64,000 nt of DNA. Source: a virus. The notes beneath the pieces are model-generated. The model was not told the DNA's origin and did no database searches. It saw only the letters and a program-made list of their open reading frames with translations. Both the position numbers and the translations under genes were made by a program. The stretch is from IMG/VR virus record IMGVR_UViG_3300009126_000274, positions 1-64,000 of that record. One strand, 5' to 3'. This document shows positions 9,811-46,817 of this stretch, piece after piece (the first letter of the stretch is position 1; the number at the start of each line of letters is the position of its first letter).

Positions 9811-10098
9811 CTAAATTAGATGCCAAATAAGTGCAAATGTGAGATAAATCCCTGCGCAAGTCCACAGAGGGTACCTATATATGCTATCTTTGAGTATTAA
9901 TCCTACTATAAACGCAGCTAAAACGACTGAAATGTCGAATAGGAACATACCAAATTGGGCTATATACACACCAAACACCTCTGCGCTGTTGTTATAGACT
10001 AGCTCTTTCGCCACTAATTCGTCACTAAACTGTTTCGGATATGCTGTAATTAAATGGAGTTGTTGAACAGGCTGCTGTGGATCGTTTCTCCGCCTCAC
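9811..10098 (-). CDS. Two-helix membrane protein
   Basis: 95 residues from ATG 10098. A soluble N-terminal third is followed by two hydrophobic helices (FGMFLFDISVVLAAFIVGLI and YPLWTCAGIYLTFALIWHLI). It overlaps the upstream gene by 74 bp, which is unusually long here; a GTG start at about 10014 would remove the overlap and keep both helices. Two short helices are compatible with a holin-like or other small membrane role, but nothing specific supports that. Confidence 0.5.
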   Translation of the reverse strand: MRRRNDPQQPVQQLHLITAYPKQFSDELVAKELVYNNSAEVFGVYIAQFGMFLFDISVVLAAFIVGLILKDSIYRYPLWTCAGIYLTFALIWHLI

Positions 10099-10267
10099 TG
10101 ATGTACGGATGCGTTACACAAACTACATCTGTTGGCCTGATTGTTCTTACTACCGTTTGTTTAGATCGTTGTAATATCTCTACTACCAGATTACTCTCGT
10201 TTAGGAGATCTATCAGCTTATCATAATTCTTACTGTCTATCTCTACTGTTACTAGCTCGTTGGCCAT
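10025..10267 (-). CDS. Hypothetical protein
   Basis: 80 residues starting MANELVTVEIDSKNYDKLID, an alternating beta/helix pattern with no recognised family. The ATG at 10267 follows agagagaggcaaaaacc, a purine-rich leader. Its 3' end overlaps the membrane protein gene by up to 74 bp. Confidence 0.55.
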   Translation of the reverse strand: MANELVTVEIDSKNYDKLIDLLNESNLVVEILQRSKQTVVRTIRPTDVVCVTHPYISEAEKRSTAACSTTPFNYSISETV

Positions 10268-16394: not shown

Positions 16395-17165
16395 TTAGTT
16401 TTTGGTATCATTTTCTAAATGCTGAATATAATCTTTTATATTATGGTCAGCCACAAAATCCAATCGACCCTTCAATATCGTCTTTAATAAACTCCAACCT
16501 TTGTCCCTTATTCGCTCTGTAGACCATCGTCTTAAGCGAGTAACTTCTCCAGTTGATTTTATATAATAACAGTCTCCTGTATGCCTATACCATATCCAGC
16601 TAGGTACACAAGGAACCACGTCATTATTATTAACGAATCTTTGATGATTAAGATGTTTATCACACCATGCTCTAAATTGTGGCCCGCCTGCTCGAGGTGA
16701 ACCAAAGGTGTACAATGTGTCGACATCATGTCCACCTGTGAACTCTAATCTTTGAGCTAGAATAGTAGCCATTGCGCCTCCTAAACTATGTCCTGTTGCC
16801 CATATCTTTTTGCCATGTGTTATTCTATCAATAAGCGATTCAACATGATCATAAATCTTATCTACTTCTTCCTTGAATCCCTGGTGGATTTTATTACCAG
16901 AGACAGAGTCGGATTTAAAAACTTGCAAATCTGCTATGATATCGTTCATCGCTCCATGGCCTTTTTGTGTGCCTCTGCATGCTATAACGATATCATCCTT
17001 ATTGTAATATACATAGCACTGGGCGCCTTCTATGTCAAAGAAACTGTGTTTGTTAAATCCTTTACGTTTGCCGGATTTAGCTCCTGTTTTCTCTGGATAG
17101 TAAGCGTACTGTGCAAATTTAGCAAAGAGGACTCGCCTCTCCTTTTCTGACATACTACTAATCAT
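16395..17165 (-). CDS. Class 3 lipase/phospholipase-like esterase
   Basis: 256 residues. The nucleophile elbow GHSLGG (Ser127) sits after a beta strand (IWATGHSLGG), followed by FGSPRAGGPQF and NNNDVVPCVP carrying the expected acid (about Asp189), with a later His (ADHNI) as candidate base. No signal peptide. The likely target is membrane lipid or another ester. A late box lies exactly 5 nt before the ATG, with no ribosome site, so late leaderless expression is predicted; an alternative ATG at 17153 also lacks one. Confidence 0.8.
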   Translation of the reverse strand: MISSMSEKERRVLFAKFAQYAYYPEKTGAKSGKRKGFNKHSFFDIEGAQCYVYYNKDDIVIACRGTQKGHGAMNDIIADLQVFKSDSVSGNKIHQGFKEEVDKIYDHVESLIDRITHGKKIWATGHSLGGAMATILAQRLEFTGGHDVDTLYTFGSPRAGGPQFRAWCDKHLNHQRFVNNNDVVPCVPSWIWYRHTGDCYYIKSTGEVTRLRRWSTERIRDKGWSLLKTILKGRLDFVADHNIKDYIQHLENDTKN

Positions 17166-17170
17166 GTCAA

Positions 17171-17178
17171 TATTTATA
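17171..17178 (-). promoter_or_regulatory. Late promoter box (T4-type)
   Basis: TATAAATA on the minus strand, 5 nt before the ATG of the lipase gene at 17165, so the predicted start is the A of ATG. It forms a back-to-back pair with the plus-strand box at 17180. Confidence 0.65.
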
Positions 17179-17179
17179 A

Positions 17180-17187
17180 TATAAATA
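17180..17187 (+). promoter_or_regulatory. Late promoter box (T4-type)
   Basis: TATAAATA followed by CTG, the T4 late consensus, predicting a start near 17193 and a 24-nt leader containing aaggaga before the gene at 17217. With the minus-strand box 1 bp away it forms a divergent promoter core. Confidence 0.75.
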
Positions 17188-17216: not shown

Positions 17217-18611
17217 ATGGCAACAATGGCAAAAGCAGACTTTCTTAAATATGCTGGTTTCAGGCCTGGCGTATTTCTAGACAAATGTTCTGCATCTGAA
17301 GGACATTCCTTAAGTGGGTATGCAACTGATCAGGTTATCATTGGAGTAATGACAGGACAAAACGCAAAAACAGCTAAACAAACATCAATTACCTCATTAA
17401 TGAGTCTTCCAAATCCAGGCCAGGCTTTGGTAAGACTTATCCAGAGTGGATCTTATAACCAATTAATACTACAAGATAAAACGCTGGTGCCTCTTGGCAA
17501 ATTAGAAAAAACAGAGGAGTATCAACTTAATGGAAGAAAGAACCACAACAAGGGAAACATAGCAGAAATAATATTCTCTGCTGCTATAGTAGCTCGCTTT
17601 AAAGCAGGATGTGGCACACATACCAGGATCGGTGAGACAGAGATTAAAGCTATAATGGATCTGTGCAAAGTGAATGATAGCACTATCAAATTGGAGTCAC
17701 CCAATAAGGGAACGACGATAAAAGATGATCTCGTCTTTACATATCAAATAGGCGAGCCTCATTGGCGCGCTGTCAAAAACCCCAAGCTATGGCCTCTGTG
17801 GAGTCAAATTATAGATGCTTCCATCAAATATGCTAACTCAGTCAATGTAGTAGATATGGTTGCAGAAGTGTGGGGCAATGGTGTTAAAAATAGTATCATT
17901 GTGCTATCAGACGGCGAAACAGATCAAAAAGGAACAAAGGTAGATGTAAGAGTACAAGTCACAGACCATGCTGGTGATTTATCAGGACCTGATTTCCTAA
18001 AGATATCACTTAAAGTAGATGGTGTAAAACAATTTGGCCAAATGGGAGGCACAACCTTAGATGTACAAAAGAAACTCTGGAAAGACGCATTTGGTATTGA
18101 TGTTGCAATGACTCAGCTATCTTATGATAAGCTTAAGGGAGGAATAGAACATTTCAAAGATACCGCCAATGCCATAATGGCAGTCTATAAGGAAGTGGCA
18201 CCGAAAGTGCCTGACGCTCTACTAACACAATCAGGTGTAAGGGCCTTCAGTAGCTTTGTACAATACCACTTCTCAAAACGTGAAGAAGGCATGCTACTCG
18301 TAGACTTAAAAGGAGACCAGGCAATTCAATATGATGCAAGTAACTTAGAGGAGGCTTTTAACGGTTTAGAACTTGAATCAGAACTAGGAATATCAGAAGC
18401 CCAAAGGGTAGGTGGCAAAGTGGTAAAAGAGAATTTGCCTAAGTTAATGATCTACGGCAAAGGACATAAACTAACAACCAAAGAGCCTCTGATAGAGATA
18501 AGAGTAAAACGTGGAGAGAGAAGCGCTGACGGCACACCATACTATCGTAATGTTTTTGAAAAACAAAAAGGATTTACAATACTCTTTGCACAAGCTATTG
18601 AAATAGATTAA
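17217..18611 (+). CDS. Late-expressed protein with PD-(D/E)XK-like signature
   Basis: 464 residues beginning MATMAKADFLKYAGFRPGVF. A conserved helix (GNIAEIIFSAAIVARF) followed at distance by KVDVRVQV and ISLKVDGVKQFGQ fits the E...D...K pattern of PD-(D/E)XK nuclease folds (Glu in the helix, Asp in the strand, Lys in SLK). This is a visual match only. It is one of few plus-strand genes in the central window, has its own late box and an aaggag ribosome site, and leads a three-gene plus operon. Confidence 0.6.
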   Translation: MATMAKADFLKYAGFRPGVFLDKCSASEGHSLSGYATDQVIIGVMTGQNAKTAKQTSITSLMSLPNPGQALVRLIQSGSYNQLILQDKTLVPLGKLEKTEEYQLNGRKNHNKGNIAEIIFSAAIVARFKAGCGTHTRIGETEIKAIMDLCKVNDSTIKLESPNKGTTIKDDLVFTYQIGEPHWRAVKNPKLWPLWSQIIDASIKYANSVNVVDMVAEVWGNGVKNSIIVLSDGETDQKGTKVDVRVQVTDHAGDLSGPDFLKISLKVDGVKQFGQMGGTTLDVQKKLWKDAFGIDVAMTQLSYDKLKGGIEHFKDTANAIMAVYKEVAPKVPDALLTQSGVRAFSSFVQYHFSKREEGMLLVDLKGDQAIQYDASNLEEAFNGLELESELGISEAQRVGGKVVKENLPKLMIYGKGHKLTTKEPLIEIRVKRGERSADGTPYYRNVFEKQKGFTILFAQAIEID

Positions 18612-24906: not shown

Positions 24907-26467
24907 CTTTCTTCTCCTTCAATTTTTGATCTATTAACCATTGTAATTCTTTCTCTTTAACTGGGTCCATCTTAGATTCTTCACCGTATTTTGCTGGTAG
25001 CCAATCGTCTTCTGTTGGTTTAAAATTATCTAGCACTTGATTCTCTTCTATTTCTTGCCACTTCAACGTTCCTTTCATCTGCTCTGGTTCTAATGTAGTA
25101 TCTTCTTCTAAGAACATATCGATATGCATGTCTTCTGTTACTTTAACAGTTTCTGGACCTAGCTCGTAATAGTCTCCTCTATCTACTGATCCTTTAGCTT
25201 GCCAGGACTCTGGGTCAGGCTTGTCTGTTGATGATATACCTACTTCTGGCACTGATTCCTTCTCAACAACATCGTCATCTAATCTTACAGGTGTTATCCT
25301 TCCACCCATTCTCTCTTTTATACTAAGGTTTGCTGCTATAACTAGAATTATAGCTAATGGGTCAAATACAAATATTAATAATAGTATAAGGATTACTACA
25401 GCTCTATCAATATTTTCTGTTGTATCGTCGCCGTAAAGAAATTGTGCTACATATCTCACAGGGCCAACTTCCTTGTCTAAATCTCTTACAATAGCTCGTT
25501 CCTCAAACAAGTCCTCATTGTATGCTCCTATTTGGTCGTATGCCTCGTCAATAGTGGCCTGGATCTCATCTATTTGTATGTCTCTAGTTGCTGAACTCTG
25601 ACTCTCATTTTCCCTTAACCTGTTTATCTCATCATTAGCTCTGTCTATGTCGCCTTGTGTGGTTTCTCTATATTGTACAATTTGGTTACGATAACCTGCT
25701 ATTTGTTCCTCAGCATAACGTCTAAGTTCAACTATATCTGCGTCTATCTTTGCTCTTTCCTCTCTTTGGCTCTCTCTTACTTGTAAACCTAATGCCACAT
25801 TGTCAACAGTCTCGTCTCTTCTAAAAGCTCCTGTGTCTGTTGTCGTAGTACCTTGGTTAGTATAAGATGCAACTATAGCGTCTAAACCGTCAAGTTCTTG
25901 TTGTTTTTGTGCTAAATCTGTGTCCAAACTAGCCCTAATTTTGTCTATTTGTTCCTCAGAGTACTCTATGTCGCCTTGTATTCTTTCCCATGCCGTATCT
26001 CGTATCTCTTCCTGTTGACGTATGCTTTCTGTTACATCAAGAGTAGAACCTTGTTGGATTCTTAGTATTCTATCCTCAGCTGCTGCTATTTTGCCATTTT
26101 CTCGTTCTATTAGTTGTTCAACGCGCTCTACTTTTGCTTGTGCATCACCTGAAACTGCTGCCTGATCTAAATGTGCTTTAGATAGGAACCCGAATATACC
26201 TATTGATGTTATGATGGATAGCACTACGACAGATGTAACCATGTAGCTCTTCATTAAGAGACTGGTGCGTTGCCAATACTGATATATCCATGATGCTGTA
26301 ACAAGTTTAGCAATTTCTAATACAACACCCATAGATAAAATAGCCATAGGTAGTGCTGAGAATATAGCCATAAGTCCTACGATGGAGAAGTACGCAGCTA
26401 CTGCTGATACAGCTAGTGCTGAGAATACTGTTCCTATAATAAATGTCATACTTCTAGTCTGAAACAT
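24899..26467 (-). CDS. Large membrane protein with long coiled coil
   Basis: 522 residues from ATG 26467 (MFQTRSMTFIIGTVFSALAV), chosen because gggag lies 8 nt upstream and the ATG overlaps the prior stop as TAATG. N-terminal hydrophobic segments (about 4), a ~200-residue coiled coil rich in Glu/Gln/Arg, then another hydrophobic hairpin near 370-400 and an acidic C-terminal tail. I associate this layout with marine phage membrane proteins. Role unknown. Confidence 0.75.
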   Translation of the reverse strand: MFQTRSMTFIIGTVFSALAVSAVAAYFSIVGLMAIFSALPMAILSMGVVLEIAKLVTASWIYQYWQRTSLLMKSYMVTSVVVLSIITSIGIFGFLSKAHLDQAAVSGDAQAKVERVEQLIERENGKIAAAEDRILRIQQGSTLDVTESIRQQEEIRDTAWERIQGDIEYSEEQIDKIRASLDTDLAQKQQELDGLDAIVASYTNQGTTTTDTGAFRRDETVDNVALGLQVRESQREERAKIDADIVELRRYAEEQIAGYRNQIVQYRETTQGDIDRANDEINRLRENESQSSATRDIQIDEIQATIDEAYDQIGAYNEDLFEERAIVRDLDKEVGPVRYVAQFLYGDDTTENIDRAVVILILLLIFVFDPLAIILVIAANLSIKERMGGRITPVRLDDDVVEKESVPEVGISSTDKPDPESWQAKGSVDRGDYYELGPETVKVTEDMHIDMFLEEDTTLEPEQMKGTLKWQEIEENQVLDNFKPTEDDWLPAKYGEESKMDPVKEKELQWLIDQKLKEKKDA

Positions 26468-26814
26468 TAGTTTACTCCCCAATTTCTCCAAGTGGCCTGG
26501 TCTCTTGTTTTAGGCGACCATTCAATTGGTTGGAAATCTTTTAAGTGGCTGGCTCTTAATCTAACATGTAGCATATCATTAACACAAAACTCATCATCTC
26601 TTTGTTGCCATTGCAATAAAAACTCTTGCATCTTCGCAGGTGCACGTGATGAATATTCTGCTATGATTTCTTTTGTTAATGTCTGCGTACATTCTTTAAC
26701 AACCTTTGAACTACCAAAGTATTTCTCAAATAGTTTATCTGTCTTGCAGGAATATCCAATATAATATCTTCCGTCTGGAAAATAAGTACAATATACTCTA
26801 TGTTTTTTAGCCAT
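26467..26814 (-). CDS. GIY-YIG-like small nuclease-type protein
   Basis: 115 residues from ATG at 26814. The start (HRVYCTYFPDGRYYIGYS) matches the GIY...YIG pattern of GIY-YIG nucleases, including the spacing; a later Arg/His/Glu set is plausible but not clear. No ribosome site is seen; a CATAAATA box lies 5 nt upstream. May be a nuclease or a degenerate relative. Confidence 0.6.
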   Translation of the reverse strand: MAKKHRVYCTYFPDGRYYIGYSCKTDKLFEKYFGSSKVVKECTQTLTKEIIAEYSSRAPAKMQEFLLQWQQRDDEFCVNDMLHVRLRASHLKDFQPIEWSPKTRDQATWRNWGVN

Positions 26815-26818
26815 ATGA

Positions 26819-27151
26819 CTATTTATGTGTTCTTTTACCGTCGAAAACACAGACAAAGTATAGATCTTCAGTACCGTCGTTAATAACTTGATGAAAGTCT
26901 CCATCCTCTATTAACTTAATATCACCTGCTTTGACTGGCCATTTAGCCTCTTCTATCTTTATTTTGCCTTCGCCTTCCACAAAAATATAAACTTCTTCTT
27001 GCCCAGGATGTGTATGTCCTGTTGTTCGTTTGCCTGGATACAGTCGTGTACTGCTTAATACCAAGTTGTTTAAGTGTGTATTGTCTTTTACTTCATAGGT
27101 ATCGTTTGATTTAACGACCACACCACCTACGTCACTAATTGTTTGCTTCAT
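26819..27151 (-). CDS. Cupin-domain protein
   Basis: 110 residues from ATG 27151, chosen for the gaggaag ribosome site. Cupin metal-binding residues are in GHTHPGQEEVYIF and the second motif in DFHQVIND. A single beta-barrel, fitting small sugar-binding or isomerase-type cupins. It overlaps the zinc-ribbon gene by 17 bp. Substrate unknown. Confidence 0.75.
   Translation of the reverse strand: MKQTISDVGGVVVKSNDTYEVKDNTHLNNLVLSSTRLYPGKRTTGHTHPGQEEVYIFVEGEGKIKIEEAKWPVKAGDIKLIEDGDFHQVINDGTEDLYFVCVFDGKRTHK
26820..26827 (-). promoter_or_regulatory. Late-box variant 5 nt before ATG
   Basis: CATAAATA, one base off TATAAATA, placed 5 nt before the ATG of the GIY-YIG-like gene at 26814 and inside the end of the cupin gene. 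Same geometry as at 17171, 39166 and 46044. Confidence 0.4.
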
Positions 27152-29561: not shown

Positions 29562-31357
29562 TAACCCTCACAAGCTAGACATTCACCATCAGCCACGTCT
29601 CTCATATCTAATTCCTGTATTATCTCTCTTTCTATTCGTTTAGAAACTTTATCTGCCTTTCCTAACTTCTCTGAACGGCAATAATATAACGTTTTAATAC
29701 CTGACTTCCATGCTAAAAAGTGAACAGCATGTAGATATGCTATATTTGCGTCAGGCCTGAAGAAAAGATTTAAAGATTGTGCTTGATCTATGTACTCTTG
29801 TCTATCTGCGCCATGTTCAATTAACCATCGTTGATCTATTTCCATAGATGTTTTAAATAAGCTCTTCTGTTCGTCAGATAATATTTTTAAGTGTTGTACA
29901 GAACCATCGTTGCTTATGATCGACGACCAAATATCGTCATAATTCGTTCTCGGATGTTTTTCACAATACTCTGTGATGATTGCATCCAGGTATTTATTTT
30001 TGTTGAGGTATGCACCCGATAAGGTATCTTGCCTGTAAGCATTAGCTCTAAACGGTTCAATAGATGGCGAAGTGTTCCCCATAATAATACTACTGGAAGC
30101 ATTAGGAGCAATAGCCATAACATGGCTAAAACGAACCCCTCTTCCTTTAGCATCTGGAGCCTCTCCTCTTTCTTTCCCGAGCCTTTTGTTTGCTTCATCT
30201 AATTTTCCTCTAATGTATCTAAATATTCTCAAGTTGGCACCACGTGCTTGTGCACTTTCCCATGCAATACCATTCTTTTGAAGGTAGGCATGAAATCCTA
30301 AAGCTCCAACCCCTATGCTCCTTTCACGACTAGCAGAGTATTGTGCTCTTCTAACCTGTGAGGGTGCGTTATCTATAAAATATTGCAAGACATTATCTAA
30401 CATCTCTGCAACATCGTCTAAAAATTTTGGATCTCGAACCCAGGCTGCGTAATGCTCTAGGTTCACAGACGATAAACAACATACTGCTGTCCTTTTTTCG
30501 TCTGTTGGTAAAATAATCTCTGAACAGAGATTACTCTGATTAATTCTTAACCCTAATTCCTTTTGGAATTCAGGCATCTGTCTATTACTTGTATCTATAA
30601 AATGTAGGTATGGTTCCCCTGTTTCCATTCTAAGTTCTAGTATCCTTTGCCATAATCCTCTGGCTGATACTGTTTCTGTTACTGCTCCTGAATGTGGGTC
30701 TGTCAAATTCCAGCCATCATCAGCATCATCATCTACCATACACCGTTCTATTATTTCCATAAAACGATCAGTTATATTAATTCCATGATGAAGGTTAAGA
30801 CATCTCATATTAGGATCGCCTGTTGCCTTTCTCATTTCTAAAAACATTAACACATCTGGATGGGAGATATCTAGGTATGTAGCATACGAGCCTCTTCTTG
30901 TTTTGCCCTGTCTATATGCTAAACAGGACGCATCGTATGTTTTTAGGTGGGACATAACTCCTGTTGATTTATCATCAGAACTCCTTATGCCAAATCCTAT
31001 ACCTACACCTCCACCTAACATTGACAACCAATTAGTCTCAGACAGGTTTTTTACTAATCCTTCTGCTGTGTCATCAATATAATTTAAGAAGCATGATATA
31101 GGCATACCACGATTAGAGCGTCCATAGGAAAGAATAGGAGTGCTGTATGAGAGCCAATGCTTACTGGCGTATTCATATAGTCTTTGTGCATGTTCTGGAT
31201 TGCTAGCAAACTGTGAACTTACATAAGCAAAACGTTCTTGAGGAGAGGTTTCCTCGTCCTTCATGTAACTTTCTCTTAATCTTTGTAATCCTAACTCATC
31301 AAATAGAGTATCACGATCCCTGTCAATTTGTATGCCTAAATAATCTTCCCTTGCCAC
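29561..31357 (-). CDS. nrdA: Ribonucleotide reductase class I large subunit
   Basis: 598 residues from GTG 31357 (aaggaata ribosome site), shorter than E. coli NrdA (about 760), lacking an ATP cone. Active-site N-x-C-x-E is in QSNLCSEI; SYATYLDISHPD and PNMRCLNLHHG carry the conserved thiyl and substrate regions. The C-terminal ECLACEG is the redox C-x-x-C. Reduces NDPs with NrdB. Confidence 0.9.
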   Translation of the reverse strand: MAREDYLGIQIDRDRDTLFDELGLQRLRESYMKDEETSPQERFAYVSSQFASNPEHAQRLYEYASKHWLSYSTPILSYGRSNRGMPISCFLNYIDDTAEGLVKNLSETNWLSMLGGGVGIGFGIRSSDDKSTGVMSHLKTYDASCLAYRQGKTRRGSYATYLDISHPDVLMFLEMRKATGDPNMRCLNLHHGINITDRFMEIIERCMVDDDADDGWNLTDPHSGAVTETVSARGLWQRILELRMETGEPYLHFIDTSNRQMPEFQKELGLRINQSNLCSEIILPTDEKRTAVCCLSSVNLEHYAAWVRDPKFLDDVAEMLDNVLQYFIDNAPSQVRRAQYSASRERSIGVGALGFHAYLQKNGIAWESAQARGANLRIFRYIRGKLDEANKRLGKERGEAPDAKGRGVRFSHVMAIAPNASSSIIMGNTSPSIEPFRANAYRQDTLSGAYLNKNKYLDAIITEYCEKHPRTNYDDIWSSIISNDGSVQHLKILSDEQKSLFKTSMEIDQRWLIEHGADRQEYIDQAQSLNLFFRPDANIAYLHAVHFLAWKSGIKTLYYCRSEKLGKADKVSKRIEREIIQELDMRDVADGECLACEG

Positions 31358-35021: not shown

Positions 35022-35606
35022 TTACGCTACGACTGTTATTGTACCAGCTGCTGTACCTATACTTGCTGCACTTGTGATAGTGGAAGCTGTGTTAGTTCCA
35101 TTATCTTTAATTGTGCCTGAATTTAATGCAAGTGGATTGGCTCCAAAGCTTAATACGTCATTGGCGTTTGTAGCTGCGTTTGCTGCTGCAATAACAAGTG
35201 AGAACACTAATTCATTGGTACCTGTACCACTAGCGTATGATAATACATGTGGTCCACGGCCTGAACCAGAACCTTGGTTACCATTGGTAACTGATAGTTG
35301 TGGTGTTCCTGTTACTGCTACTTCTTCATTGAATCTTACTCTAGCTGAAAGCGTAAAGCCTGCTGACTTATCTGCTGCTGTTGTAATCCATTCAATTTCT
35401 GTTATATCTGCTGCTCCAAGATTAGTTGTTAGAGAAGACATGGCTACTAGAACTTCTGGATCAGCGCCTGTACGGCCATTTCCTGTCATAGTAGATCCTG
35501 CTTCAACTACCCAACCTTGAGTGCTAGCATATACTTCTTTTTTCTGAGCAGTTGTTAACCATTTAGGCTTACTTTCATCTGCGTCTGTTGCTCCCCAATT
35601 TGGCAT
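35022..35606 (-). CDS. Putative virion decoration protein, Ig-like
   Basis: 194 residues beginning MPNWGATDADESKPKWLTTA, a start seen in marine T4-like structural proteins. The C-terminal half (SARVRFNEEVAVTGTPQLSV, ELVFSLVI) resembles SwmB/Ig-like repeats. A virion surface protein is likely. ggagaaaa ribosome site. Confidence 0.7.
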   Translation of the reverse strand: MPNWGATDADESKPKWLTTAQKKEVYASTQGWVVEAGSTMTGNGRTGADPEVLVAMSSLTTNLGAADITEIEWITTAADKSAGFTLSARVRFNEEVAVTGTPQLSVTNGNQGSGSGRGPHVLSYASGTGTNELVFSLVIAAANAATNANDVLSFGANPLALNSGTIKDNGTNTASTITSAASIGTAAGTITVVA

Positions 35607-35616
35607 TTTTTTTCTC

Positions 35617-37575
35617 CTATTCTACGTGTTTTTTAAAATTGTCATGTGATGCATGAGCGTGATCTTGCATCTTTAGTTTATCTGCCGGCTTGTGCTTCAT
35701 ATATCTATCTAAAAATTTATGTGCATGTGCCGAACTCACTTTATGAGTCTTTCCGTCTTTAAACTTGACTCCATCGTGCTTATCACCTAATGATACTGCC
35801 TTTCTCATTTGAGCGACAATATGTTCTGGGCCTTTATTCTCAGAACCATCATGTTTACTTTTTCCAGGCTTTGGGTCCTTTTTAACAGGAGCCATTCCTC
35901 TACCCGAATCTTGTTTAATATCTCTTAAGGCATCCTGTTTGGCGCCTTCTTGGACATCGTTATATAATCTGTCTGTTTCCTTTTGAAGTTCTACATTAGG
36001 ATCTATTACTAAAGGATCAGGACTTAATACGTCTCTAACTGTTTTGTGAACATCTCTAATCGCCTGATTAGGTGTCTTAGGCAATGGATTTTCCTCTTCG
36101 CCATCTGTTTCTGTTTCTTCTCTTGTGTATGTAGTCTTTCCGCCGTATCCTGTAACTTTGCCGTCTTTGTTTTTAGAAACAAATCGTTGGCTAGATTTGA
36201 CTTTAAGCCCCATACTCTTTTCCATAGACTTGACTGCTTTTGAAGCGTCTTTTAATTTAACTGCTCCACCAATTCCACCTTCTTCTAACTCGGATTCTTT
36301 TAGTTTAAGTTTTTTCTCTGCTCTTTCCAAATTCTTCGTATCTTTAGGCCATTGAACATTGGCATTGCCAATTCTTTCTTGTTTAGCCTTCTTATAACTC
36401 TTTAAAGTCTTTGGTGAAAGTTCAGTCAAATCCTGTTCTTTAACTACCTTCTTTTTCTTAGCATAAGAAATAGTTTTCTTACTAGCTGCTTGTTTAGACA
36501 ACCAGTTAGGATCTTTTCTCTTTGCTCTACCTTCACTGCTGTCATCAAAGTATCCATGACCTAAAGCATAATCTTTAAGTCTACCTTCTTCTAAAGGATG
36601 TTCTAATTCTTCGTTGGCATGTTTTAGATGTTTCTGAGCTTCCGGATGATCTGATAGGCCTTTCTTAACCTTTTCCATTGCTTTGGCTGCTCCGGAATAA
36701 TTACCACCTTTGTATCTCTTATCAAAAGCTATACCCTTTGCCATCTTAAGATGTTTTTTGGTTATTGTTTCATCTAAATCGTTAAAAAATTCTTTTTTCT
36801 CTTCTTGAGGAATATCTCTGATGTTCTCGACGCCTTTATCTTCTAATGACTTATTAAGGTGCTCTTTGTAAGCCGCGTTAAACGCTAAAATATCTTTGGT
36901 TATTTCAGACTCTCTTACACTTGACTTCTCTTTTTCTTTTCTCAGAGACTTAGGTAGGTCTGATAAATCACGTTTCCTACGTTTAAATTTCTTATCAATT
37001 AAACCTTCTCCAAGTTTTGGCCTCTTGTCTGTTCCTTTAGTCTCTTCTACATCAGGTTTGCCTGACTGTTTAGGACCATCGGTAATTTCTGGGACTACTG
37101 AACCGCCTTGTTTAGGTGACTCTTTATCTCCCTCATGTTTGTCTGCTGGGCGATTAGCGCCTCTTGCATGTTCTTCTTTCATGTCTTCTTCCTCTGCATT
37201 AGATTGGCCGAGTCCATTTGTGTCTTTAAGTTTTTTGCCAGAAGCTTTCTTTTTGACCTTCTTGTCTCTTTTAGCTTCTTGCTCATCTTTGTTGCCATCA
37301 TATATGATGACATCTTCTTCACTTATCACGCCTGTTTCCTCGGTCTGATATTTAGTCTTTTGAGTGTGTAACCTAGCTCTATTATATGTAATGTCGTCTC
37401 CAAATTGAAACCCCATCATTGAATCGAGCAACTGTCTCAAAGCTTGTCTTTCATAAGGTGTTAAAACCTTACCCATTTTAATACTCGCCAAAGCTCTGTG
37501 TAATATGGGTAACTGTCTAGCTGGCATCATGCCTTGCCTAATCAGTCTATCTAGTCTTTGATTAATACTTTCCAC
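35617..37575 (-). CDS. Large charged protein, probable head/scaffold component
   Basis: 652 residues, starting MESINQRLDRLIRQGMMPAR. Mostly Lys/Glu/Asp-rich, with a His-rich C-terminal part (KVSSAHAHKFLDRYMKHKPAD). It has a late box 21 nt upstream and aagaggaaaa ribosome site. Position among virion-type genes and composition suggest an internal head or portal-associated protein; no family verified. Confidence 0.7.
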   Translation of the reverse strand: MESINQRLDRLIRQGMMPARQLPILHRALASIKMGKVLTPYERQALRQLLDSMMGFQFGDDITYNRARLHTQKTKYQTEETGVISEEDVIIYDGNKDEQEAKRDKKVKKKASGKKLKDTNGLGQSNAEEEDMKEEHARGANRPADKHEGDKESPKQGGSVVPEITDGPKQSGKPDVEETKGTDKRPKLGEGLIDKKFKRRKRDLSDLPKSLRKEKEKSSVRESEITKDILAFNAAYKEHLNKSLEDKGVENIRDIPQEEKKEFFNDLDETITKKHLKMAKGIAFDKRYKGGNYSGAAKAMEKVKKGLSDHPEAQKHLKHANEELEHPLEEGRLKDYALGHGYFDDSSEGRAKRKDPNWLSKQAASKKTISYAKKKKVVKEQDLTELSPKTLKSYKKAKQERIGNANVQWPKDTKNLERAEKKLKLKESELEEGGIGGAVKLKDASKAVKSMEKSMGLKVKSSQRFVSKNKDGKVTGYGGKTTYTREETETDGEEENPLPKTPNQAIRDVHKTVRDVLSPDPLVIDPNVELQKETDRLYNDVQEGAKQDALRDIKQDSGRGMAPVKKDPKPGKSKHDGSENKGPEHIVAQMRKAVSLGDKHDGVKFKDGKTHKVSSAHAHKFLDRYMKHKPADKLKMQDHAHASHDNFKKHVE

Positions 37576-37596: not shown

Positions 37597-37604
37597 TATT
37601 TATA
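37597..37604 (-). promoter_or_regulatory. Late promoter box (T4-type)
   Basis: TATAAATA, in a 40-bp gap, 21 nt before the ATG at 37575, with predicted start about 37591 and a leader of about 16 nt holding the ribosome site. The cleanest conventional late promoter in the window. Confidence 0.75.
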
Positions 37605-37615
37605 CATTCCGGCCA

Positions 37616-39160
37616 CTAGATAGCCAATTTCTTTTGTTTATACGTTTCTATAAAGTTCTTTGCATATTCACTTGGTATTGGTAACTCGCTTTGTAGTTTG
37701 GACATATCTTCCCATTTATATTGTGGATCTATTAACCAATTATGATAGCCAAATGGCAATGGTGGCTGATCAGTTCCCGTTGTGTACCACTCATGTTCCA
37801 AAAAGTTTATTACTTCATACAAATCTAGAGTATCTGATTTCCAGTTCATAAAAGATACTTCTTCCTGGAATGTGCTTTCTTCTGTTTTATATACAGTTTT
37901 ATTAGGATTTTCTTCTCTTTTCTTAAGAGCTTCATACATTTTGCCATATCTTTTTTGAGGACCATCTTTCCATGTTCTATTGCCTATAATAGTTTCTGTA
38001 AATCCGTATTTTGCTGGGTCTTTTGAAAATCTGCTTTGTTCATCGTATGGTCTTGGGTCACTAGGTATCCACAAAGGATTGATTAAAGCAGTTTGGCCTT
38101 GCCAATTATTTTCTAACCATCTTTTTGTTTCCCTTAGAGTATCTAAAGTTTCATATGGTAAACCAGCAATTAAATTTATATGTCCCTGAAAAAATCCTTG
38201 CTGCTTAGCCCAATGTTTGTAATTTAAAAGACCATCTTGTAGTTTAACAGTTTCCATGCCCTTTCCTACCGACTTTCCTGAAGGTCTATGGAAAGATTCA
38301 ATGCCATAGAATTGAGAATTTAATCCTAAATCATGTATCATTTGCCAGTCATCTGGTTTAGAAACTAATAAATCTCCTCGAATATAACCTGCCATATTAG
38401 GTTTAAAGGGTAGTTTTTTAATTTGATTAGCATATCTGTATAGCTTTTCTGTGTAATCGTTTACTGTTTCGTCTGCTATTGAGTAGTTAGTTACACCCCA
38501 TTTTTCATAATTTGTAAGTAATTCATTATATAAATTGTCCTCTGCTCTGCTGTGATCTTCTTTAATTCCTCTATGGGTTAGTGTACAGAAGTGGCAATTA
38601 AATATACAACCACGGCCAAACTCTACTGTAAGGACCTCCTGTGGCTGGATATGATCCCTATCTTCGTAATAAGTAGATAAGTCTTTTAATTGTGCTGCAG
38701 GATAATCATGTGTTGCATCTATACGACGGTAAGGATGTCCATTAAGCCACATGTGATCTGAATACTTTGGATTGCCTTTAAGAATAGCAGTTATGGCCAA
38801 TTCTCCGTAACCGTGTACCACATAATCAATTGGTAATCCTTCTACATTATATAATGATTGAGAGCCTGCTACGATTAAAACGTCAGGATATTCTTTTTTA
38901 AACCAGGGTACAAATTTATATAGATGTTTAAATCTAATTGAGAATGTAGCGCTTAGGCCTAAGAATTTTGTTTTGTTTGTTACTCGTTGGCGGGAGAACT
39001 CTTTTAACTCATCTAGAGTCCAAGAGTTTACAAAGTCTAGAACTTCTATATCCCAACCTTCTCGTCTTAAGTGTGTTGCTATTTTGTGAGCTCCTGGAGC
39101 TCTTTTGATTGAATCATAATAATAGTCAACCACACCACCCATAATAATACCGTGGTTCAT
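37616..39160 (-). CDS. Radical SAM enzyme with cobalamin-binding-type N-domain (paralogue 2)
   Basis: 514 residues; Cys185, Cys189, Cys192 form C-IFN-C-HF-C. Aligns along its length with the 541-residue protein at 13547-15172 (HGIIMGG, FGRGCIF, DETVNDYTEKL, QFYGIESFHRPS). Lacks about 25 residues near the N-terminus. A late-box variant lies 5 nt before the ATG, and no ribosome site is present. Confidence 0.8.
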   Translation of the reverse strand: MNHGIIMGGVVDYYYDSIKRAPGAHKIATHLRREGWDIEVLDFVNSWTLDELKEFSRQRVTNKTKFLGLSATFSIRFKHLYKFVPWFKKEYPDVLIVAGSQSLYNVEGLPIDYVVHGYGELAITAILKGNPKYSDHMWLNGHPYRRIDATHDYPAAQLKDLSTYYEDRDHIQPQEVLTVEFGRGCIFNCHFCTLTHRGIKEDHSRAEDNLYNELLTNYEKWGVTNYSIADETVNDYTEKLYRYANQIKKLPFKPNMAGYIRGDLLVSKPDDWQMIHDLGLNSQFYGIESFHRPSGKSVGKGMETVKLQDGLLNYKHWAKQQGFFQGHINLIAGLPYETLDTLRETKRWLENNWQGQTALINPLWIPSDPRPYDEQSRFSKDPAKYGFTETIIGNRTWKDGPQKRYGKMYEALKKREENPNKTVYKTEESTFQEEVSFMNWKSDTLDLYEVINFLEHEWYTTGTDQPPLPFGYHNWLIDPQYKWEDMSKLQSELPIPSEYAKNFIETYKQKKLAI

Positions 39161-39165
39161 ATTGT

Positions 39166-39173
39166 TATTTATT
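39166..39173 (-). promoter_or_regulatory. Late-box variant 5 nt before ATG
   Basis: AATAAATA on the minus strand, one base from TATAAATA, 5 nt before the radical SAM ATG at 39160. Same geometry as the boxes at 17171 and 46044. Confidence 0.4.
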
Positions 39174-44886: not shown

Positions 44887-46038
44887 TTATCCTTTATTAA
44901 AATTAGCAGCGCTAAATTCTTTTCTGTCTACAAATTTAGAAGGTCTGCCATTTCTTATAGCTACAAATCCTTCTGGTTTACTCTCTGCTCCTGCTATCTC
45001 ATGCCCCCATTGTGACTTCTGAGATAGAGTGTTGGTTATAATATTCTTGGCCGATTGCAAATGTTTGTGCATATTCATAGGGCCTTCAAAGTGCTCTTTA
45101 TTCTTATTTATGTGATCTATTGTATTATCTTTGGTTGTTTGATGCCTGGCCTTAGCTGCGTCAGTTTTTACACCATCTATTTTCTTTTGATGTGTAGCTG
45201 AATGATGTTCTACAAAACCTTCGTGGGAATGTTCTGTCCCTGTTCTTACCGTGTGGTTTATATACGTTTTTAAAGCAGTAGAGTGCTTACCTACTGTGTC
45301 GTGATGTTCGTCTGGTGTGTTTTTAAAGTGTGCTACTGCTTGTTGTAGGTGATGATCTACTTGTTTCCTGTCCTCTAAGGAGTATCTATTTTGAGATGTA
45401 TCGTGTGTAGTATCCATCAAATGAACGTCCTTATGCCCCTTAAAATGGCTCATATCAGGGTTATGTACTGCCTTTAATGACTTAATGTCCTTGCCTTCGT
45501 ACTGTGTATGTACTGCTAATCCTAGCTTAGCTTTCGATGCTTTTTTACCGTGTTCTGAATCTGCCGGGGCGTGATATGTAATTGTATTAGGTGTAAATTC
45601 TACTCTATTTCCGTTCTGCTTTACCCCTGTGTGCATAACATCTGCTTGATATATGCCTTGTGGTTTAATTTTATGTGCGTGATCTAATGATGCTTTAAGT
45701 TTTTCTACTAAACCTGGCGCATGGCCGTGATTCTTTTCTATATCTTCAGGTGTGTAGTTTATCTTAGGAGTTTTATTGAATGCTGATTTAGATGCTACAA
45801 AGAACTTCTTTGTTTCAGGATGCTCGCCGAATACAATAGCAGGACTGCCATCGTATTTCATTGTAACAGCTGTGTCCTTACCACCCTTTCCAGATAGCTT
45901 TTTGTGCATATCATTAACGGTGTGAAAGGCATGTCCAAACCCTTTTTTGCCTGCATGTATGACGTGATCTTCGACATGCTCTAGGTGTTTGAGTTTGTCC
46001 TCATCTTGTTGTTCAGTTAAAAATTCAGTAAACCTCAT
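44887..46038 (-). CDS. DUF6267-like protein with ligase-type KxDG motif
   Basis: 383 residues, His-rich. VTMKYDGSPAIVFG places Lys61 in a K-x-D-G nucleotidyl-lysine motif, as in RNA/DNA ligases. The N-terminus (MRFTEFLTEQQ) ends at an L-x-E type site like T4 prohead protease targets. A late box sits 5 nt before the ATG with no ribosome site. Ligase or nucleotidyltransferase activity is suggested, not shown. Confidence 0.65.
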   Translation of the reverse strand: MRFTEFLTEQQDEDKLKHLEHVEDHVIHAGKKGFGHAFHTVNDMHKKLSGKGGKDTAVTMKYDGSPAIVFGEHPETKKFFVASKSAFNKTPKINYTPEDIEKNHGHAPGLVEKLKASLDHAHKIKPQGIYQADVMHTGVKQNGNRVEFTPNTITYHAPADSEHGKKASKAKLGLAVHTQYEGKDIKSLKAVHNPDMSHFKGHKDVHLMDTTHDTSQNRYSLEDRKQVDHHLQQAVAHFKNTPDEHHDTVGKHSTALKTYINHTVRTGTEHSHEGFVEHHSATHQKKIDGVKTDAAKARHQTTKDNTIDHINKNKEHFEGPMNMHKHLQSAKNIITNTLSQKSQWGHEIAGAESKPEGFVAIRNGRPSKFVDRKEFSAANFNKG

Positions 46039-46043
46039 ACCAG

Positions 46044-46051
46044 TATTTATA
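46044..46051 (-). promoter_or_regulatory. Late promoter box 5 nt before ATG
   Basis: TATAAATA on the minus strand, 5 nt before the ATG at 46038, so transcription is predicted to begin at the start codon. The same geometry occurs for the lipase gene at 17165. Confidence 0.65.
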
Positions 46052-46817
46052 ATAATTTAATGAACGGAAAATTTAATCTCTTCTTTACCGTTCCTTTTAG
46101 TTTTCTAACCTCTGACTCTCTTAAAGGAACATAAAAGAACTCATCATCTATATATTTTGTCTTTGACTCGTCACCTTTTACTATTCCATGTCTCCCTAAT
46201 CTATCTAAAACAATAGAAGTTTCTGTATATGTTACGTCTGCTCCTGTATCTAAAACTCTTTCTATGAATTCCTTATCACCAAAATGGTGGCCTGTGAAAG
46301 ACTCATCATAACCTCCAGCTTCCCAGAACGTTTCTTTACCTATTACAAAGCAATTTCTATGTCCTGGTTGTTGCATTACTGTTTGTTTGGCTGGTACATA
46401 AGCATGATGATAATATAATTTGCCTTCTTCAAACTTTTTCCTTTTTAATCTAGCAATATCAGGAGCGTACATACGCATATCCATATCAAAAAATGCTATG
46501 AAATCTGTTTCTGCGTAGTGTGCTATTAAATTTCTACAACCATGTGAGTTGAACCCTAGGTTTCTAGTGCATTTCCATAGCTGTATGGTGGGTCCTGAAT
46601 CAGGTATCCAAACATCTTTTAGTATTTCGTATGCTTGAAATATCTCTGAACCATCATCGACGATAAATATATCTATTTGATCTGGCCAAGTCTGCCAAAC
46701 TTTGATTTGTTCTTCTAAACGCTCCGGTTCTTGAAAATAAGTATAACCTGCTGTAAACCTATTCTTCAACCTGGATGTTCGTGATGTCTTCTGCGGGAAA
46801 GTCAATTGCGTCTCCAT
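46047..46817 (-). CDS. Glycosyltransferase family 2-like
   Basis: 256 residues. FIVDDGSE and FFDMDMRM (D-x-D) are the nucleotide-sugar binding motifs of GT-A enzymes; PGHRNCFVIGKETFWEAGGY and GDKEF follow. No membrane segment. Likely transfers a sugar to a phage or host glycan or protein. Overlaps the upstream gene by 59 bp. Confidence 0.8.
   Translation of the reverse strand: METQLTFPQKTSRTSRLKNRFTAGYTYFQEPERLEEQIKVWQTWPDQIDIFIVDDGSEIFQAYEILKDVWIPDSGPTIQLWKCTRNLGFNSHGCRNLIAHYAETDFIAFFDMDMRMYAPDIARLKRKKFEEGKLYYHHAYVPAKQTVMQQPGHRNCFVIGKETFWEAGGYDESFTGHHFGDKEFIERVLDTGADVTYTETSIVLDRLGRHGIVKGDESKTKYIDDEFFYVPLRESEVRKLKGTVKKRLNFPFIKLL

Follow-up and report, generated by a model that had tools for sequence, protein, structure and literature searches.

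Genes and promoter boxes at the locus

The window analysed here is the opening 64 kb of a linear IMG/VR virus contig 89.5 kb in length, whose DNA polymerase shares 48% identity with the polymerases of Synechococcus T4-like phages and in which the genes for NAD synthetase and UDP-glucose dehydrogenase adjoin, as they do in Pelagibacter phage HTVC008M. A search of known phages at the DNA level returned no match. An earlier note had recorded four minus-strand genes in which the 8-mer TATAAATA, or a one-base variant of it, is followed by exactly 5 nt and then by ATG (an arrangement designated N5 below, with other spacings named likewise), and all four, with starts at 17165, 46038, 26814 and 39160, were found as described:

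17171..17178, minus strand: putative late promoter box TATAAATA, followed by the spacer TTGAC and the lipase ATG at 17165
16395..17165, minus strand: lipase/esterase-like gene (phrog_21992, E 4e-26), ATG at 17165, predicted leaderless
46044..46051, minus strand: putative late promoter box TATAAATA, followed by the spacer CTGGT and ATG at 46038
44887..46038, minus strand: phrog_455 gene (E 1e-85; DUF6267-like in the earlier note), predicted leaderless
39166..39173, minus strand: putative late box variant AATAAATA, followed by the spacer ACAAT and ATG at 39160
37616..39160, minus strand: gene named radical SAM 2 in the earlier note, 514 aa, predicted leaderless
26820..26827, minus strand: putative late box variant CATAAATA, followed by the spacer GTCAT and ATG at 26814
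26467..26814, minus strand: gene named GIY-YIG-like in the earlier note, 115 aa from ATG 26814, predicted leaderless

The accompanying claim that none of these genes has a Shine-Dalgarno (SD) sequence was borne out as well, since the SD is missing at all four sites and the box fills its place. The 514-aa radical SAM 2 protein had no match in a comparison with PHROG. The frame of the GIY-YIG-like gene contains a second in-frame ATG upstream, at 26904, from which a 145-aa ORF without a match in PHROG would be read; however, 26814 is the likely start, as the box-N5 ATG of relatives aligns with it. A fifth NATAAATA-N5-ATG in the window, at 29985 on the minus strand, falls within the coding sequence for ribonucleotide reductase and seems to be fortuitous.

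Placement of the box relative to start codons

The earlier note had roughly estimated that such exact placement is very unlikely by chance, and the counts agree with it. In the 89.5-kb contig itself, two of 17 TATAAATA boxes stand at N5 before a gene ATG (P = 4e-4), and the pooled and per-relative values are far smaller. Eight related contigs together contain 188 TATAAATA boxes, of which 24 are separated from a gene ATG by exactly 5 nt, while no more than two occur at any other spacing from 0 to 16; the leadered genes are found at spacings from 17 upward. Since the pooled contigs are partly akin (G001, G003 and G005 are kin), these counts are incompletely independent, and the single-genome tests weigh more. 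In a 170-kb relative (G001), 7/47 boxes are at N5 (P = 4e-12), and two shorter relatives contribute 4/23 and 4/12; the corresponding counts are 5/21 in HTVC008M and 2/25 in the Methylophilales phage Melnitz. When the starts annotated by the depositors of HTVC008M were used, nine of 45 NATAAATA boxes fell at N5 (P = 2e-20), whereas none of 600 other shifts, all within 300 nt, gave more than two.

Searches that were less bound to the full 8-mer gave the same spacing. The pattern ATAAATA-N5-ATG occurs 38 times in six genomes, compared with four occurrences of the reversed-pattern control, and in the annotated stretch of phage Mosig that was examined, six of seven matches coincide with annotated starts. 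An unbiased scan of 6-mers and offsets before ATGs recovered SD motifs, and TAAATA at N5 was the top signal not resembling an SD (39 observed, 4.3 expected, P = 5e-24). The class has limits: TATAAATA is absent from N0 to N12 before gene ATGs in T4, Syn9 and P-HM2 show neither an N5 peak with TATAAATA nor an N5 gene start with the exact box, and XG4, C48C1 and relative G002 contain zero N5 gene starts with exact TATAAATA.

It could be argued that the arrangement arises by chance in AT-rich DNA, or that it reflects start-codon context or a gene-junction pattern without any transcriptional role, given that TATAAATA is composed only of A and T and that, at the phrog_455 gene, the gene upstream (46047-46817) terminates at the TAA of the box. 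This is extremely improbable. For 55 anagram 8-mers of TATAAATA, the mean number of N5 sites is 0.29 and the maximum four, against 24 for the real box, and the shifted positions in HTVC008M give no more than two against nine; chance or composition as the cause of the N5 class was rejected on these two controls. An upstream stop-codon pattern was likewise rejected, because the stop at 46047 falls within the box 46044-46051, yet at many other sites the upstream stop lies outside it. Moreover, a single-mismatch scan at N5 found that the first position of the box (-13) alone is free to vary, and the box also precedes leadered genes, where it has an identical +1 signature.

Box identity and the predicted transcription start

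The freedom at -13 is informative in itself, since this base is reported to be degenerate in the T4-like phages RB49, KVP40 and S-PM2 (PMC1524935); with -13 as the only free position, the one-base variants in the window are not arbitrary. The late boxes of T4 span -13 to -6 (PMC1524935), so that +1 corresponds to the sixth base after the box; at N5 sites, this base is the A of the start codon. Among boxes without an N5 start, a purine occupies position 6 in 138 of 164 cases, as opposed to approximately 60% at neighbouring positions (P = 1e-11), and T4 boxes display their purine peak at the same position (26/32). In the N5 class, the base at -1 is a pyrimidine in 22/24 sites compared with 51% of starts generally, and an SD is found in 0/24 compared with 47-68% of genes by a permissive count. 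The triplet at the predicted +1 is ATG in 28 cases, GTG in three, CTG in one and TTG in none. The earlier note had placed +1 on this A and suggested leaderless late mRNAs; the N5 peak agrees with that proposal, as do the purine preference six bases after the box, the pyrimidine bias at -1 and the missing SD.

The contig also encodes a homolog of the late sigma factor gp55 (86306-86803, minus strand), with 51% identity to the late sigma factor of HTVC008M. The co-activator gp33 was found in G001 only, with no match in the present contig, which is incomplete. In HTVC008M, N5 boxes stand before orthologs of T4 late (virion) genes, among them gene 2, one for a gp25-like baseplate protein, the baseplate tail tube cap gene (19456) and other annotated virion genes.

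A separate motif was noted in the same region of these genomes: TATATT immediately 5' of ATG is strongly enriched in the eight related contigs (32 observed, 2.9 expected), which is partly attributable to the spacer that follows an SD.

Conservation of the spacing among relatives

The box-N5 placement is a class in a family of marine T4-like phages, of which the sites in the window are one case. The earlier note had suggested searching related phages for conservation of the arrangement; it is conserved for the phrog_455, radical SAM 2 and GIY-YIG-like genes, whereas for the lipase gene it does not extend beyond close relatives. For the phrog_455 gene (46038), 19 N5 and two N6 arrangements were counted among 21 boxed contexts, the most distant of them at about 47-57% protein identity, and in relatives that have gained an extra ATG codon, N5 is maintained relative to the first ATG. 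For radical SAM 2, all eight boxed contexts are NATAAATA-N5-ATG. The GIY-YIG-like gene has N5 in seven contexts, while in distant relatives the box-to-ATG spacing is 19-31 nt. In those distant relatives (L229-L256), a conserved inverted repeat, GTTCAC...GTGAAC, lies between box and ATG with GGAG beside or inside it, and this repeat could fold over the ribosome site.

The lipase gene, the lead case of the earlier note, has N5 only in the two closest sequences (e.g., L083, with 93% aa identity); in more distant relatives the box stands at N8, N10 or N11 or is missing. Elsewhere in these phages, gene 2, the DNA end protector, has N5 in HTVC008M, Mosig, Melnitz and G001 at 31-39% identity. The gp25-like baseplate gene has its box at N5-N9 in 41/41 contexts examined, and elsewhere at N16 with an SD in Melnitz, N20 in C48C1 and N26 in P-HM2. 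The lipase relatives without N5 and the N5-N9 range of the gp25-like gene suggest that strict leaderlessness is not kept in every relative.

Leadered genes and a natural switch

Other genes of these phages are preceded by the same box with a leader, the distance from box to ATG being mostly 16 nt or more and many having an SD. Three features in the window illustrate the leadered arrangement:

17180..17187, plus strand: putative late box TATAAATA serving the leadered gene at 17217, with AAGGAG before the ATG
17217..18611, plus strand: 464-aa gene (phrog_3560), leadered contrast, with SD and 29 nt from box to ATG
37597..37604, minus strand: TATAAATA box of a leadered gene (start 37575, AGAGG SD), with AAT and not ATG as the +1 triplet

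Between 17171 and 17187, two opposite-strand boxes of the late type stand back to back with one base between them, the minus-strand one predicted to give a leaderless mRNA and the plus-strand one a leadered mRNA with an SD.

The gene at 37575 is of particular interest. Its ortholog in G005 (25843, minus strand) starts exactly at the N5-ATG, whereas in G001, G002, G003 and the window the box and the A at +1 are kept, the triplet is ATA or AAT and the start lies downstream, with an SD in the window. Judged from these sequences, the pair shows a natural switch between predicted leaderless and leadered states.

Proposed mechanism and alternatives

What is observed for the class is a spacing of exactly 5 nt that exceeds chance expectation and is conserved, together with the base signature at +1 and -1 and the absence of SD. 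These features are best explained by gp55-type late promoters that yield leaderless mRNAs, or mRNAs with leaders of 0-6 nt, a reading to which we assign a probability of roughly 0.8. The boxes would be T4-type late promoters, in which gp55 is the sigma factor that recognises the -10-like element. As infection enters its late phase, a holoenzyme of the gp55 type would initiate transcription at the A of the start codon, and the resulting late mRNA would have neither a 5' leader nor an SD, so that the ribosome would start by recognising the 5'-terminal AUG. We infer both steps, transcription from the A of ATG and translation of these mRNAs without a leader, from the sequence. In related genes, the spacing may slip from N6 to N11, which would correspond to leaders of approximately 1-6 nt.

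Such slippage bears on the possibility that the start of transcription is displaced from the A by 1-3 nt, or varies in position, leaving tiny leaders or an mRNA that has lost its AUG. The spacings of N6, N7, N8 and N9 in gp25-like relatives and of N8-N11 in lipase relatives would be compatible with this, and the +1 position is itself read from base preference. Nevertheless, boxes without an N5 start prefer a purine most strongly at position 6, both here and in T4, and N6-N11 spacings are rare genome-wide (3/188, against 24 at N5), which makes a displaced start quite improbable.

The surroundings of the N5 sites raise a different question. At most of them, the stop of a co-directional upstream gene lies 4-24 nt before the ATG, and in such junctions a promoter and a start would fit where a leader could not. 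For the same reason, read-through mRNAs may carry these genes too, and polycistronic transcription is known for many late genes of T4-like phages. The N5 boxes might then be real late promoters while the protein is made mostly from read-through mRNAs via translational coupling, the leaderless mRNA being minor or poorly translated. We consider this rather unlikely: the lipase gene of the window and the gene at 17217 are divergent, with 51 nt separating their starts, HTVC008M gene 2 is also divergent from its upstream neighbour (gap of 26 nt), and neither has a co-directional partner; in addition, coupling leaves the fixed spacing of exactly 5 unexplained.

If gp55-type promoters do produce leaderless late mRNAs, the box-N5-ATG arrangement might furthermore act as a late regulatory switch. 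The ORFs would hardly be translated from early or middle read-through, because they are without SD and close behind an upstream stop, and they would be turned on once gp55 yields an AUG-first mRNA; the late ribosome pool may favour such mRNAs. This extension of the promoter reading is tentative and, in our judgement, less likely than not.

Relation to known systems

The boxes share with the T4-type late promoters (gp55/gp33/gp45) the same 8-mer TATAAATA, the free -13 position, a gp55 homolog and the purine at position 6. They differ in that the late boxes of T4 are at least 13 nt upstream of the gene, typically with an SD in the leader, whereas here a subset has the start codon at the predicted +1. 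Among the cyanomyoviruses, which belong to the same family, Kyanoviridae, and have the same motif, NATAAATA late promoters have been described in S-PM2 and Syn9 (PMC2984593). The arrangement TATAAATA-N5-ATG was found in none of S-PM2, P-SSM2, S-WAM1 and S-MbCM7. The late promoters of pelagimyophages went undetected by an earlier method (PMC7029224).

Leaderless mRNAs have a precedent in phiYS40, a phage of Thermus that is not T4-like. Most of its middle and late mRNAs are leaderless, and a shift in IF2/IF3 has been reported (PMC3594737). The two cases are alike in that a lytic phage has middle or late mRNAs without a leader, which is predicted here from sequence, and unlike in that most of these mRNAs are leaderless in phiYS40, while only a subset is predicted to be so here. 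Leaderless phage mRNAs and T4-type late promoters are thus each known, and no description of the two combined, as leaderless late mRNAs made from T4-type promoters, was present in the literature searched; the Syn9 infection transcriptome lies outside that scope.

Implications and host context

Pelagimyophages infect SAR11, which is among the most abundant marine bacteria. The fixed position of a late box against the start codon would make it simple to annotate late genes in uncultured phages and to place their starts correctly. The N5 placement is conserved in cultured phages and directly testable, and SAR11 or OM43 infected with the cultured phages HTVC008M, Mosig and Melnitz would be a ready system for studying leaderless translation in streamlined marine bacteria. 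Furthermore, ortholog pairs that are predicted to be leaderless or leadered depending on the phage could serve as natural experiments on the gain and loss of mRNA leaders.

Ribosomal protein S21 was considered as a helper of the N5 mRNAs. Homologs are encoded by HTVC008M (91228-91431), Mosig (9947-10141, minus strand) and Melnitz-2 (35458-35637), and none was found in the present contig or in G001; the presence of phage S21 therefore does not follow N5 use, and it was rejected in this role. On the host side, approximately 400 kb of one SAR11 genome (L496-L515) showed no sharp spacing between a -10 box and ATG at crude starts. The same crude first-ATG starts carry an SD-like motif in 37 of 373 cases (~10%), as against roughly half or more of the starts in the phages, where the count was more permissive.
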